Assembly: GCA_947630645.1 (NCBI GenBank)
Contig: CANRIF010000002.1
Span: forward strand, 1 to 64,000
Direction: 5' to 3'
Length of the DNA: 64,000 nt
Origin: an uncultured Oscillospiraceae bacterium
GTDB taxonomy: Bacteria > Bacillota > Clostridia > Oscillospirales > Oscillospiraceae
In this document: piece by piece, positions 36,552 to 48,505 of the stretch
How the letters are laid out: each line of letters begins with the position of its first letter
How positions within the stretch are numbered: position 1 is the stretch's first letter
Position numbers and translations under genes: made by a program
Notes under the pieces: model-generated
Seen by the model: the letters and a program-made list of their open reading frames with translations, nothing else
What the model was told of the DNA's origin: nothing
Database searches by the model: none

Positions 36552-36611
36552 TTTCAATAATGTGTCGCTTTCAGCGACAAATGAAGATGCTAAGTTGACC
36601 GCAAGCCCAAA

Positions 36612-36662
36612 GCCTCCCCTGTGCAAGGGGAGGTGCCGAGCGAAGCGAGGCGGAGAGGTTGT
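36612..36662 (+). repeat. palindromic element, left half
   Basis: GCCTCCCCTGTGCAAGGGGAGGTGCCGAGCGAAGCGAGGCGGAGAGGTTGT; near-identical to 48376 and 46867-46918 (rc). Confidence 0.85.
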
Positions 36663-44432: not shown

Positions 44433-46421
44433 ATGAAAAAATTCAAGCTGCTGTCCTTTCTTCTTATCATAGCACTGCTGACGGGGCTACTGCCCTCCTT
44501 TGCCCTGGCCGCGGAGGCCCCGGAGGCGATCGTCCCTGAGACGGTGAACGAGCCGGAGGTCCTGGCGACCAAGGCCATCGCCATCAACGCGGAGACGGGC
44601 GACATCCTCTTCCAGCGCGACGCGGACGTCACGGCGAACCCCTATTTTCTGGGCCAGCTGATGACGCTGCTGCTGATCGGCGACGCCCTGGACCTGCAGT
44701 CCATCTCCCTGAACGACACGGTCACCGCCTCCGGCACGTTCCAGACCGGCCTGGAGGGCGCCACCGTGGCCGGCATCTCCCCCGGCGAGGTGCTTACGGT
44801 GGAGCAGCTGCTGTACCTGCTGGCCAGCCCCGGCTATATGGACGCGGCCAACATCCTGGCGGAGTTCAACTCCGGGTCCGTCACCGCCTTCGTCGCCGAG
44901 ATGAACCAGCGCGCCCAGGACCTGGGATGCACCCGCACCCACTTCGTCAACGCCACCGGGATGCCCACGGACGGCCAGTATTCCACCGCCCACGACCTGG
45001 CCCTGATCACGGCGGAGCTGCTGAAAAAGCCGTCCATCTCCCAGATCATGCAGACCCTGACCTATAACATCCCGGCCACCCAGTACGCCGGCGCCCGGAC
45101 CGTCAACAACGAGAACCTCCTTCTCAAGAGCGACAGCTCCGTGTACTACCGCAACGCTTACAGCGGCAAGACCGGCGGCGTCACCGAGGAGGGCGCCAAC
45201 CTGATGGCCGCCGCCTCCTATAACGAGCTGGACATCATCGCCATCGTCCTGGGCAGCCAGAGTACCGACACCCGCTTCACGGACGCCGTCAACCTCTTCA
45301 CCTGGTCCTTCACCAATTACAGCTTCCGCACCCTCCTAAGCTCCACCGACATCCTGGACACCGTCCCCGTGGAGATGGGAAGCCCCGAGTCCGTGAGCGT
45401 ACACGCCGAGGACCAGATCCGCATGGTCATGCCCGTGAGCCAGGAGTTGGGCGAGGTGAGGATGGAGTTCTCCTATACCTTCGAGCAGTCCGGCGAACCC
45501 CTGCACGCCCCGGTCACCGTGGGGCAGTATGTGGGCGACGTGACGGTCTATCTGGACGGCGTGGAGATGGGCACCTCCCGGCTCGTCACCTCCACCTCGT
45601 CGGACATCTCCCGGATCGAGTACCTGCGCTCCCAGCTGGATACCCTGGTCCACACCGACTCGGTGCGCCGGATGGTGACGGTGCTGCTGGTGATATTGGC
45701 GGTCTATCTGCTGCTGGTGATATTCTACCGCATCCAGCGGTCCCTGCACCTCCGCAGCCTGCGCCGCGCCCGCAAGGACCGGGCCATCGCCCGAGCCTCC
45801 CAGGAGATCCAGTGGCTGGACATCCCGCAGGACCAGAACGGCGTGCCTGTCGTCTCCCTGCCCGACCAGGAGCAGCCGGCGCCGGAGGATAGCGCCGGGG
45901 AGGAAGCCGCCGTCTATGAGCAGGCCCCCGAGGACATAGGGGAGGAAGCACCCGCGGAGGAACAGGCCCCCGAGGGCACGGAAGAGGCCGCCATTTACGA
46001 GCAGGCCCCCGAGGATACCGGAGAGGAAGCACCCGAAGAGGAACAGGCTCCCGCCGACGCCGAAGAGGCAGCCCCCGCGGAGGAGCAGGCCCCGGAGGAT
46101 ACTGTGGAAGAGGTCCCCGCGGAGGGCGGCCAGGAATATTATGAGGAAGCCCCCGCTGATGGCGAAGAGTATTACGAGGAAGCCCCCGCGGAGGGTGAGG
46201 AATATTACGAAGACGCTCCCGCCGACAGCGAAGAGTATTACGAAGAGGCCCCCGCTGACGGCGAGGAATATTACGAAGAGGCCCCCGCCGACGGCGAGGA
46301 ATATTATGATGACAACGCGCCGGAGGACGACTCCTATCTGGACGAACTGGAGGACCAGGAGGGCTTCTTCGACGAGGACGACATAGACCTTGACGGCCTC
46401 GACGGCCCTTACCACAAGTAA
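44433..46421 (+). CDS. D-alanyl-D-alanine carboxypeptidase (DacF-like) with long acidic cytosolic tail
   Basis: signal peptide; serine-peptidase S11 layout (HFVNATGMPTDGQYSTAHDLALI, NAYSGKTGGVTEEG); TM; EEYYEEAPADGE repeats. Confidence 0.85.
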   Translation: MKKFKLLSFLLIIALLTGLLPSFALAAEAPEAIVPETVNEPEVLATKAIAINAETGDILFQRDADVTANPYFLGQLMTLLLIGDALDLQSISLNDTVTASGTFQTGLEGATVAGISPGEVLTVEQLLYLLASPGYMDAANILAEFNSGSVTAFVAEMNQRAQDLGCTRTHFVNATGMPTDGQYSTAHDLALITAELLKKPSISQIMQTLTYNIPATQYAGARTVNNENLLLKSDSSVYYRNAYSGKTGGVTEEGANLMAAASYNELDIIAIVLGSQSTDTRFTDAVNLFTWSFTNYSFRTLLSSTDILDTVPVEMGSPESVSVHAEDQIRMVMPVSQELGEVRMEFSYTFEQSGEPLHAPVTVGQYVGDVTVYLDGVEMGTSRLVTSTSSDISRIEYLRSQLDTLVHTDSVRRMVTVLLVILAVYLLLVIFYRIQRSLHLRSLRRARKDRAIARASQEIQWLDIPQDQNGVPVVSLPDQEQPAPEDSAGEEAAVYEQAPEDIGEEAPAEEQAPEGTEEAAIYEQAPEDTGEEAPEEEQAPADAEEAAPAEEQAPEDTVEEVPAEGGQEYYEEAPADGEEYYEEAPAEGEEYYEDAPADSEEYYEEAPADGEEYYEEAPADGEEYYDDNAPEDDSYLDELEDQEGFFDEDDIDLDGLDGPYHK

Positions 46422-46435
46422 CCCCCAAAAATCAC

Positions 46436-46459
46436 GCCCCCGGGCTTCTGCCCGGGGGC
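46436..46459. terminator. hairpin GCCCCCGGGC-TTCT-GCCCGGGGGC
   Basis: 10-bp perfect stem after the dacF-like gene; recurs at 47140 and 48517. Confidence 0.65.
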
Positions 46460-46473
46460 ATTCCGTTTATTAT

Positions 46474-46918
46474 GGCCCCCTTGTGTAAAGGGGGCTGTCA
46501 GCGAAGCTGACTGAGGGATTGTTTTACCGCCCGATCTATGTATTCGCAAACGCCGTCAAAGTTCTGGCTTATCTCATTGTTGGGTATCCTTATGACCGTC
46601 AGGCCATATCCTGCCAAAAAGTTCGTTCTATCAGCGTCTTTCGCCTTGGCATCCGGCTCAAAATGCTGTGAGCCATCCAATTCAATGACCAGCTTTGCCT
46701 GGGCGCAGTAAAAGTCAACGATATATCTTCCTAAGACTTTTTGCCTTGAAAAAGGAATGGGATACTCCCGAAGGAGATCATACCAGAGGCGTCGCTCCTC
46801 TTTCGTCATATTCTGGCGCAACTCTCTGGCTCTTGATGTGAGCGTTTTGTTATGCTTTCGCTCCATAACAACCCCTCCGCCTCGCTCCGCTCGGCACCTC
46901 CCCTTGCACAGGGGAGGC
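46474..46918 (-). mobile_element. candidate gene-bearing palindromic element (left half, DUF559 gene, right half)
   Basis: minus strand: GCCTCCCCTGTGCAAGGGGAGG...GGCGGAGGGGTTGTT | DUF559 ORF | ACAATCCCTCAGTCAGCTTCGCTGACAGCCCCCTTTACACAAGGGGGCC. Confidence 0.6.
46498..46866 (-). CDS. DUF559/Vsr-like endonuclease-domain protein
   Basis: MERKHNKTLTSRARELRQNMTKEERRLWYDLLREYPIPFSRQKVLGRYIVDFYCAQAKLVIELDGSQHF; RBS and stop codon lie in the flanking repeat halves. Confidence 0.88.
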   Translation of the reverse strand: MERKHNKTLTSRARELRQNMTKEERRLWYDLLREYPIPFSRQKVLGRYIVDFYCAQAKLVIELDGSQHFEPDAKAKDADRTNFLAGYGLTVIRIPNNEISQNFDGVCEYIDRAVKQSLSQLR

Positions 46919-47015: not shown

Positions 47016-47125
47016 GCCTCCCCTGTGCAAGGGGAGGTGGCGCGGCTTAAGCCGTGACGGAGAGGTTGTTACAATCCCCCAGTCAGCGCCAGAGGCGCTG
47101 ACAGCCCCCTTTACACAAGGGGGCC
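47016..47125 (+). repeat. short palindromic element without gene (110 bp)
   Basis: GCCTCCCCTGTGCAAGGGGAGGTGGCGCGGCTTAAGCCGTGACGGAGAGGTTGTTACAATCCCCCAGTCAGCGCCAGAGGCGCTGACAGCCCCCTTTACACAAGGGGGCC. Confidence 0.85.
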
Positions 47126-47139
47126 GTCAATAATGTATC

Positions 47140-47163
47140 GCCCCCGGGCTTCTGCCCGGGGGC
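47140..47163. terminator. hairpin GCCCCCGGGC-TTCT-GCCCGGGGGC
   Basis: same hairpin as 46436; lies beyond the right end of the short element. Confidence 0.6.
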
Positions 47164-48360: not shown

Positions 48361-48375
48361 GCGGCAAAAAGAAAA

Positions 48376-48505
48376 GCCTCCCCTGTGCAAGGGGAGGTGC
48401 CGAGCGGATGCGAGGCGGAGGGGTTGTTGCGGTGCGGTTGGACTGACGTTACAATCCCCCAGTCAGTGCCAGCGGCGCTGACGGCCCCCTTTACACAAGG
48501 GGGCC
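48376..48505 (+). repeat. short palindromic element without gene (130 bp)
   Basis: left half GCCTCCCCTGTGCAAGGGGAGG...GGTTGTT, 22-nt spacer, right half ACAATCCCCCAGTCAGTGCC...CCCCCTTTACACAAGGGGGCC. Confidence 0.85.

Follow-up and report, generated by a model that had tools for sequence, protein, structure and literature searches.

The genome of an uncultured Oscillospiraceae bacterium carries a gene for a DUF559 (PD-(D/E)XK/Vsr-like) endonuclease exactly between two inverted halves of a palindromic repeat, and this pairing of nuclease gene and repeat is general, recurring across numerous unrelated bacteria with the types of repeat matched. We suspect, with a probability of roughly one half, that the gene with its halves is the autonomous form, and gene-free dimers of the same halves the non-autonomous form, of a REP-like BoxC/triplex repeat that is spread in a RAYT-like manner. 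In what follows, the window is the whole stretch of 64,000 nucleotides that was analysed.

A nuclease gene at the centre of a repeat dimer

Read on the gene strand, the junctions of the element are ...GGCGGAGGGGTTGTT / ATGGAGCGA...GGTAAA / ACAATCCCTCAGTCAGCTTCGCTGACAGCC... (slashes mark the borders; Table 1). A preliminary description of this DNA had placed the gene on the minus strand between two repeat halves, with the left half providing the Shine-Dalgarno sequence and the hairpin of the right half holding the stop codon; the junctions bear this out, and its coordinates were correct. The tail of the upstream half doubles as the Shine-Dalgarno sequence, with GGAGGGG immediately 5' of the ATG. 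The downstream half is an inverted relative of the upstream one (tail ACAATCCCTCAG, then hairpin 2, then hairpin 1), the stop codon (46498-46500) lies within its hairpin, and the C-terminus SLSQLR is encoded by the repeat. For translation the element needs nothing from outside, since the purine tail acts as the ribosome-binding site and the reading frame terminates in the other half.

Table 1. Position of the nuclease gene, its repeat halves and related repeats in the window
Feature	Position	Strand	Details
DUF559 (PD-(D/E)XK/Vsr-like) endonuclease gene	46498..46866	-	122 aa, ATG start, stop in downstream repeat hairpin
Upstream (A) half	46867..46917	-	hairpin 1 CCTCCCCTGTGCAAGGGGAGG 46897-46917; hairpin 2 46879-46895; tail GGAGGGGTTGTT 46867-46878
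Downstream (B) half	46475..46523	+	hairpin 1 GCCCCCTTGTGTAAAGGGGGC 46475-46495; hairpin 2 GTCAGCGAAGCTGAC 46497-46511; tail TGAGGGATTGTT
Gene-free dimer of the same two halves	47016..47125	+	centre TTGTTACAA; empty counterpart
Second gene-free dimer	48373..48504	+	short spacer, 14 nt between blastn matches
Additional A-half copy	36608..36662	+	blastn and half pattern
Outer palindrome CGCCCCCGGGCTTCTGCCCGGGGGC	46435..46459	.	terminator-like, 25 bp; one edge of the two-element cluster
Identical outer palindrome	47139..47163	.	opposite edge of the two-element cluster

The neighbouring gene-free dimer has an uninterrupted centre (TTGTTACAATCC), which places the DUF559 gene at the exact centre of a dimer. 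Patterns for the halves recovered four copies of one kind and three of the other in the window, where shuffles expect 0.00, and inverted arms were detected mechanically at 46435-46503/47096-47164 and 46892-46921/47013-47042. The outer palindromes at the edges of the two-element cluster are possibly a target duplication or a third hairpin of the unit, an ambiguity that arises because the 25-bp sequence is itself palindromic. At locus L045 like outer palindromes of a different sequence stand at both edges. Elsewhere in the window (about 45860-46330), a gene for a D-Ala-D-Ala carboxypeptidase-like protein has a long acidic repeat (EEAPADGEEYYEE...) at its end.

The 122-aa protein matches PF04480 (DUF559) with E = 6e-33 and 113.4 bits, against a curated cut-off of 20.6. 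A profile search of the PDB with DUF559 returned the solved endonuclease-like protein 3hrl (E 6.7e-25) and, remotely, the mobile intron protein 3r3p (E 0.012), which we take to be I-Bth0305I, a Vsr-like homing endonuclease of the EDxHD family from a mobile intron. Homing-endonuclease models of PADLOC and PHROG also matched weakly. Residues E24, D51, E62, D64 and H68 are conserved in the family alignment and in the window protein, and fit a Vsr-type PD-(D/E)XK nuclease. No transposase match to the protein was found in Pfam, NCBIfam or the PDB, where the best matches were DUF559 or endonuclease-like proteins.

With the halves and the gene as query, blastn gave 62 matches in the organism's own assembly (1.87 Mb, 73% complete), the gene-bearing element included, and the assembly holds a single DUF559 gene. 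Pairing of 60 half matches (40 A and 20 B, with the gene-bearing match and one short fragment omitted) yielded 19 facing pairs with spacers of -1 to 214 nt, and only the DUF559 element has a gene inside. Several gene-free dimers, such as 47016-47125, have the bare centre TTGT-Y-ACAA. The preliminary description had likened the gene and the gene-free copies nearby to an autonomous/non-autonomous pair, analogous to REP/RAYT but with a different enzyme. The comparative data give this picture, with a single nuclease gene and dozens of gene-free copies, and give it well outside this genome too; the enzyme may mobilise or maintain the repeats, as that description suggested.

Inspection by eye of the outer flanks of 50 distinct halves from the genome revealed no common end with a clean target duplication, and the flanks vary; the check for target duplications is negative in these flanks and ambiguous at the identical 25-bp palindromes of the window cluster. 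Many halves carry in their outer flanks a third, variable hairpin and ACANTATYGAAA (e.g., L005, L007, L010, L011 and L015), so that the complete repeat may extend past hairpins 1 and 2. The spacers of gene-free dimers in L019, L023, L024 and L028 have in common another, GC-rich repeat (GTCGGAACAAGCTGCAC... and GTTTCCCGTGGGGAGAGG), and the dimer centre therefore also accepts a different repeat.

Copies are not all fixed at orthologous positions, the third condition that the preliminary description had named against its reading. Two convergent genes flank the window cluster, and in two relatives (G025 and G029) the same two genes enclose a short intergenic region with a terminator and no repeat. 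A second site, 5' of a YitT-like gene, occurs with matching flanks in three states: G006 is empty, G013 carries a dimer without the gene, and the DUF559 element is present in both G021 and G022, the direction of gain or loss being unpolarised. An empty counterpart was also sought for the element of G020, which lies near a contig end, and none was recognisable.

Recurrence and build of the flanking repeats in Clostridia

Of 60 relatives, 25 carry PF04480, with at most three genes per genome. The flank test covered 106 clostridial loci. Relatives supplied 28 of these (from 30 fetched), and a scan of species genomes supplied 78 (from 79); the scan loci came from the top 80 among 574 confirmed matches and so are not a random sample. 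The 30 loci from relatives were taken from 40 listed matches, and L054 and L055 were excluded from the test as fragmentary or weakly matching; L061 was excluded because it duplicates L046. Each locus was scored by how well the 130 bases 5' of the start codon matched, in inverted orientation, the region at and 3' of the stop codon, and the threshold was set at the 99th percentile of 3703 random placements of equal length within these loci.

Inverted-repeat flanks were found at 67 of the 106 loci (23/28 from relatives and 44/78 from the species scan), compared with 1% of random placements. As a control, GIY-YIG genes of the same genomes had such flanks at one of 15 scorable loci; in the other half of the 30 fetched, the gene exceeded the length that the fetched flanks allowed. 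The remaining 39 DUF559 loci fell below the threshold, some of them with degraded, direct or read-through halves. DUF559 homologs without detectable flanking halves, which the preliminary description had regarded as contrary evidence, do exist; they speak in part against the autonomous/non-autonomous picture and do not remove it.

Chance placement as a source of the pairing is ruled out by the random placements, the GIY-YIG control and shuffled windows, and the recurrence of the pairing with different sequences rules out that it arose by one clonal expansion within a single genome. A role of the repeat as an expression signal alone was also rejected: the purine tail accounts for the upstream half, but not for the inverted half past the stop.

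When the flanks are read, many sequence types share one build, consisting of hairpin 1, hairpin 2 and a purine tail. The tail is a mirror-order copy of the purine arm of hairpin 1 (CCTCCC...GGGAGG...GGAGGG; in L104, CTCTCCC...GGGAGAG...GAGAGGG). Tail and mirrored arm matched at 0.836 on average across 166 halves from 95 loci, against 0.763 (sd 0.006) when arms were re-dealt, with 0 of 500 re-dealings as high; matched to the inverted arm, the same tails scored 0.737. Hairpin 2 has a stem of at least 5 in 297 of 382 distinct halves (23/382 after shuffling) and comprises 73 distinct arm pairs. Its stem is kept while its sequence turns over.

The clostridial halves have the three-arm layout of the BoxC or intrastrand triplex motif, that is, a pyrimidine arm, its complement and a mirror purine arm. 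This motif, TMECO (Holder et al. 2015), was earlier named BoxC or PIT. The available part of its survey counts 23 copies for E. coli MG1655, puts the number of genomes with the motif above 260, and states that neither transposase nor integrase remnants were found nearby; it reports no mobility gene there (PMC4666352). Likeness extends from the pyrimidine, purine and mirror purine arms to dimers in inverted orientation, whereas the clostridial halves differ in having their own sequences and a second hairpin in the second loop. The published E. coli consensus, CCCTCNCCCN3-6GGGNGAGGGN3GGGNGAGGG, has no match in the window. By word search, the accessible text of PMC4666352 makes no mention of endonucleases. 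The repeats themselves are of a published kind, and the pairing with DUF559 would be the new part.

Enzyme lineages, repeat types and other phyla

Each DUF559 lineage tends to sit in its own type of repeat. On the DUF559 tree, the tail labels GTTGT, GAGAGA and GATGAGG require 7 changes against a shuffled mean of 21.4, with 0 of 200 shuffles as low, for the 57 of 104 rows that could be labelled (the 47 without a clear label were left uncounted). Columns coded by the repeat were trimmed before the tree was built and L034 and L086 were excluded for their length; the proteins are short and many forks are open. Host phylogeny alone is unlikely to be behind the match, since single genomes, clearly G033, G035, G019 and G043, have paralogs of different lineages in repeats of different types. 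Enzyme lineage and repeat type co-diversify. The protein is also under strong purifying selection, with a median dN/dS of 0.08 across 55 pairs from the GTTGT clade of 11 members, where the median dS, about 1, is near saturation. One DUF559 copy in G035 (contig C36, 54988-55293) has an in-frame TAA and still lies 3' of a GTTGT-type half.

Repeat copy number also follows the enzyme. At least five type-1 copies are present in 14 of 17 same-genus genomes with DUF559 and in two of 18 without (Fisher p = 3e-5, kinship uncorrected), the rows being 35 same-genus genomes (34 plus the organism's own) and the other 25 of the 60 relatives, mostly with other DUF559 types, being omitted. The three exceptions with the gene (G016, G020 and G028) have other DUF559 and repeat types; in G020, exactly two type-2 halves were found by pattern, and both flank its DUF559 gene. 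G009 has 34 type-1 copies though its sole DUF559 gene is of the GAGAGA type. Reversed repeat patterns, a control for the counts, gave 0 everywhere. No DUF559 was detected in the repeat-rich G012 (39 type-1 copies, 93% complete) and G018 (21 type-1 copies), or in G038 and G050, which have type 2 repeats. Repeats in genomes without the nuclease, which had been named beforehand as an argument against the reading, occur in these four; they too speak in part against the autonomous/non-autonomous picture and do not remove it.

Outside the Clostridia, tblastn for DUF559 found 37 records of a plasmid collection, several of them chromosomes, and two phage records. Chromosome-size entries among these "plasmids" are NZ_CP141089.1, NZ_OL790696.1, NZ_CP119142.1 and NZ_CP119140.1 (E. 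coli, 4.9 and 4.8 Mb; N. gonorrhoeae, 2.17 Mb). Inverted-repeat flanks scored above every random placement at nine of 18 non-clostridial loci, under a null made from two alphaproteobacterial stretches whose base composition is mismatched for some of the 18. Among the nine are Sphingomonas (two), Sinorhizobium, Azospirillum, Deinococcus, Pseudanabaena, Sphingobium and one phage record; the flank test found no inverted-repeat flanks at the other nine. The Neisseria gonorrhoeae DUF559 gene has direct repeats on both sides, and by eye the Novosphingobium locus is built like the clostridial ones, its reading frame running into the downstream half.

Two of these genes adjoin motifs of the published or a relaxed BoxC/TMECO consensus, a further likeness to that system. 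On S. meliloti pSymB there are 24 triplex motifs by the relaxed pattern, three of them within 200 bp of the DUF559 gene; this wider count covered five of the 18 records. In E. coli 118UI, a motif of the published consensus overlaps the 3' end of the DUF559 gene ycjD (gene 1030-1395, motif 1372-1406 of L162), and strain C has one motif about 170 bases 3' of ycjD. The ycjD query was covered to at least 80% in 3309 of 5426 E. coli genomes. We looked for a clean insertion polymorphism at ycjD and found none; in the three ycjD-less strains that were read, a different gene occupies the place. In the sapF-fabI interval of these strains (compared in L158-L163), the gene 3' of sapF encodes a multidrug efflux MFS transporter.

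Possible roles of the nuclease

The anatomy of the element, the excess of repeat flanks, the match of types, the purifying selection and the insertion polymorphism are observations; we infer that DUF559 would recognise, cut and disperse the repeats. The nuclease may recognise the structured half (hairpin 1, hairpin 2 and purine tail), the palindromic centre GGGATTGT-N-ACAATCCC where the two tails would meet, or both. It would then cut at the half or the centre, probably on single-stranded or extruded repeat, and host repair may place the element at other sites by copying or capture, much as RAYT does for REP but by different chemistry. Each nuclease lineage would serve its own repeat type. More tentatively, DUF559 proteins could be dedicated to dispersing an ancient superfamily of repeats that spans phyla, has purine tails, forms triplexes and includes BoxC, with enzymes and repeats co-diversifying in a RAYT-like relationship without a transposase. 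Against dispersal are the 39/106 clostridial and 9/18 other loci lacking flanks, the repeat-rich genomes lacking DUF559 and the lack of a clean target duplication. A PD-(D/E)XK nuclease is not known to carry out strand transfer on its own, which counts against the proposal as well, as do the lack of a recognisable empty counterpart at the G020 site and the different gene that takes the place of ycjD in E. coli.

The closest parallel is the REP/REPIN system with RAYT (TnpA-REP), which likewise has inverted pairs of palindromes, an enzyme gene between two halves, many gene-free copies and specificity for the repeat type. RAYT is an HUH tyrosine transposase with GTAG-tagged repeats, according to the available part of PMC3733652. 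The element described here differs in having a PD-(D/E)XK nuclease and purine-tailed three-arm halves; the window protein is not an HUH (Y1) transposase of the IS200/IS605 superfamily, and the GTAG tag is absent from the halves as read. Another class, the CGTC-tagged REPs (Di Nocera et al. 2013), also consists of paired palindromic repeats and is stated, in the same available part, to lack a dedicated transposase (PMC3733652). Its build, as given there, is a terminal CGTC tag, an 8-9 bp stem that starts with A-T pairs and a CCA tail, unlike that of the DUF559 halves.

Homing is an unlikely alternative, with several observations in its favour. In this scenario, a selfish DUF559 gene would cut empty dimers at their centre and be copied in by recombination over the halves, and the repeats would spread by other means. 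We keep it in consideration because the gene lies at the exact dimer centre and because of the three-state site, where one orthologous position is gene-free in G013 and gene-bearing in G021 and G022. The profile match to 3r3p and the weak PADLOC and PHROG matches are consistent with homing, and lineage-specific tails would serve as homing sites. Like 3r3p, to which it is remotely related, the DUF559 gene would lie within its own likely recognition site; 3r3p is intron-encoded, however, whereas the DUF559 gene is free-standing inside a dispersed repeat. Efficient homing is also hard to reconcile with genomes that usually have one gene per dozens of gene-free dimers, most of which stay empty, or with G020, where no further copy of the repeat was found by pattern beyond the two halves at the gene. 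For these two reasons we prefer a RAYT-like role. Homing would, moreover, leave the arrival of dimers at new sites unexplained.

Improbable, in our judgement, is a role in maintenance or repair, in which a structure-specific DUF559 would process hairpins or triplexes of the repeats at replication forks, make the repeats tolerable and for that reason be kept adjacent to them. Strong purifying selection and a hairpin 2 stem that persists through sequence turnover would suit such an enzyme. So would the reported link of the triplex motif to instability (PMC4666352) and the repair setting in which the Caulobacter DUF559 protein VsrA works (PMC12907096), both as given in the available parts of these papers. 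A guardian, however, need not sit inside the repeat or match its type, and many-repeat genomes without detected DUF559 persist. Least probable is a passenger role, with the repeats as miniature elements of an ordinary transposase and DUF559 as cargo that uses the purine tail as a ribosome-binding site: the tail does act as a Shine-Dalgarno sequence, other gene-free dimer spacers carry unrelated sequence, including another repeat, and repeats occur without DUF559, but no other gene-sized cargo occurs between paired halves in the organism's own genome, DUF559 lineages match the repeat types, the pairing recurs in distant phyla, and neither fixed ends nor terminal repeats with target duplications were seen (an identical outer palindrome does stand on both sides in the window).

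Two groups of survey authors sought a spreading factor and found none, as stated in the available parts of their papers (PMC4666352; PMC3733652, on another repeat class). No report of DUF559 within repeats was found in the literature searched, a body of work that left most subscription papers outside its scope. Repeats of the BoxC/triplex type have so far been without a known spreading factor, and DUF559 is a concrete enzyme candidate. If the dispersal role is true, a nuclease without transposase chemistry can drive the dispersal of repeats, and DUF559, which in Pfam is still a protein of unknown function, would gain a function.
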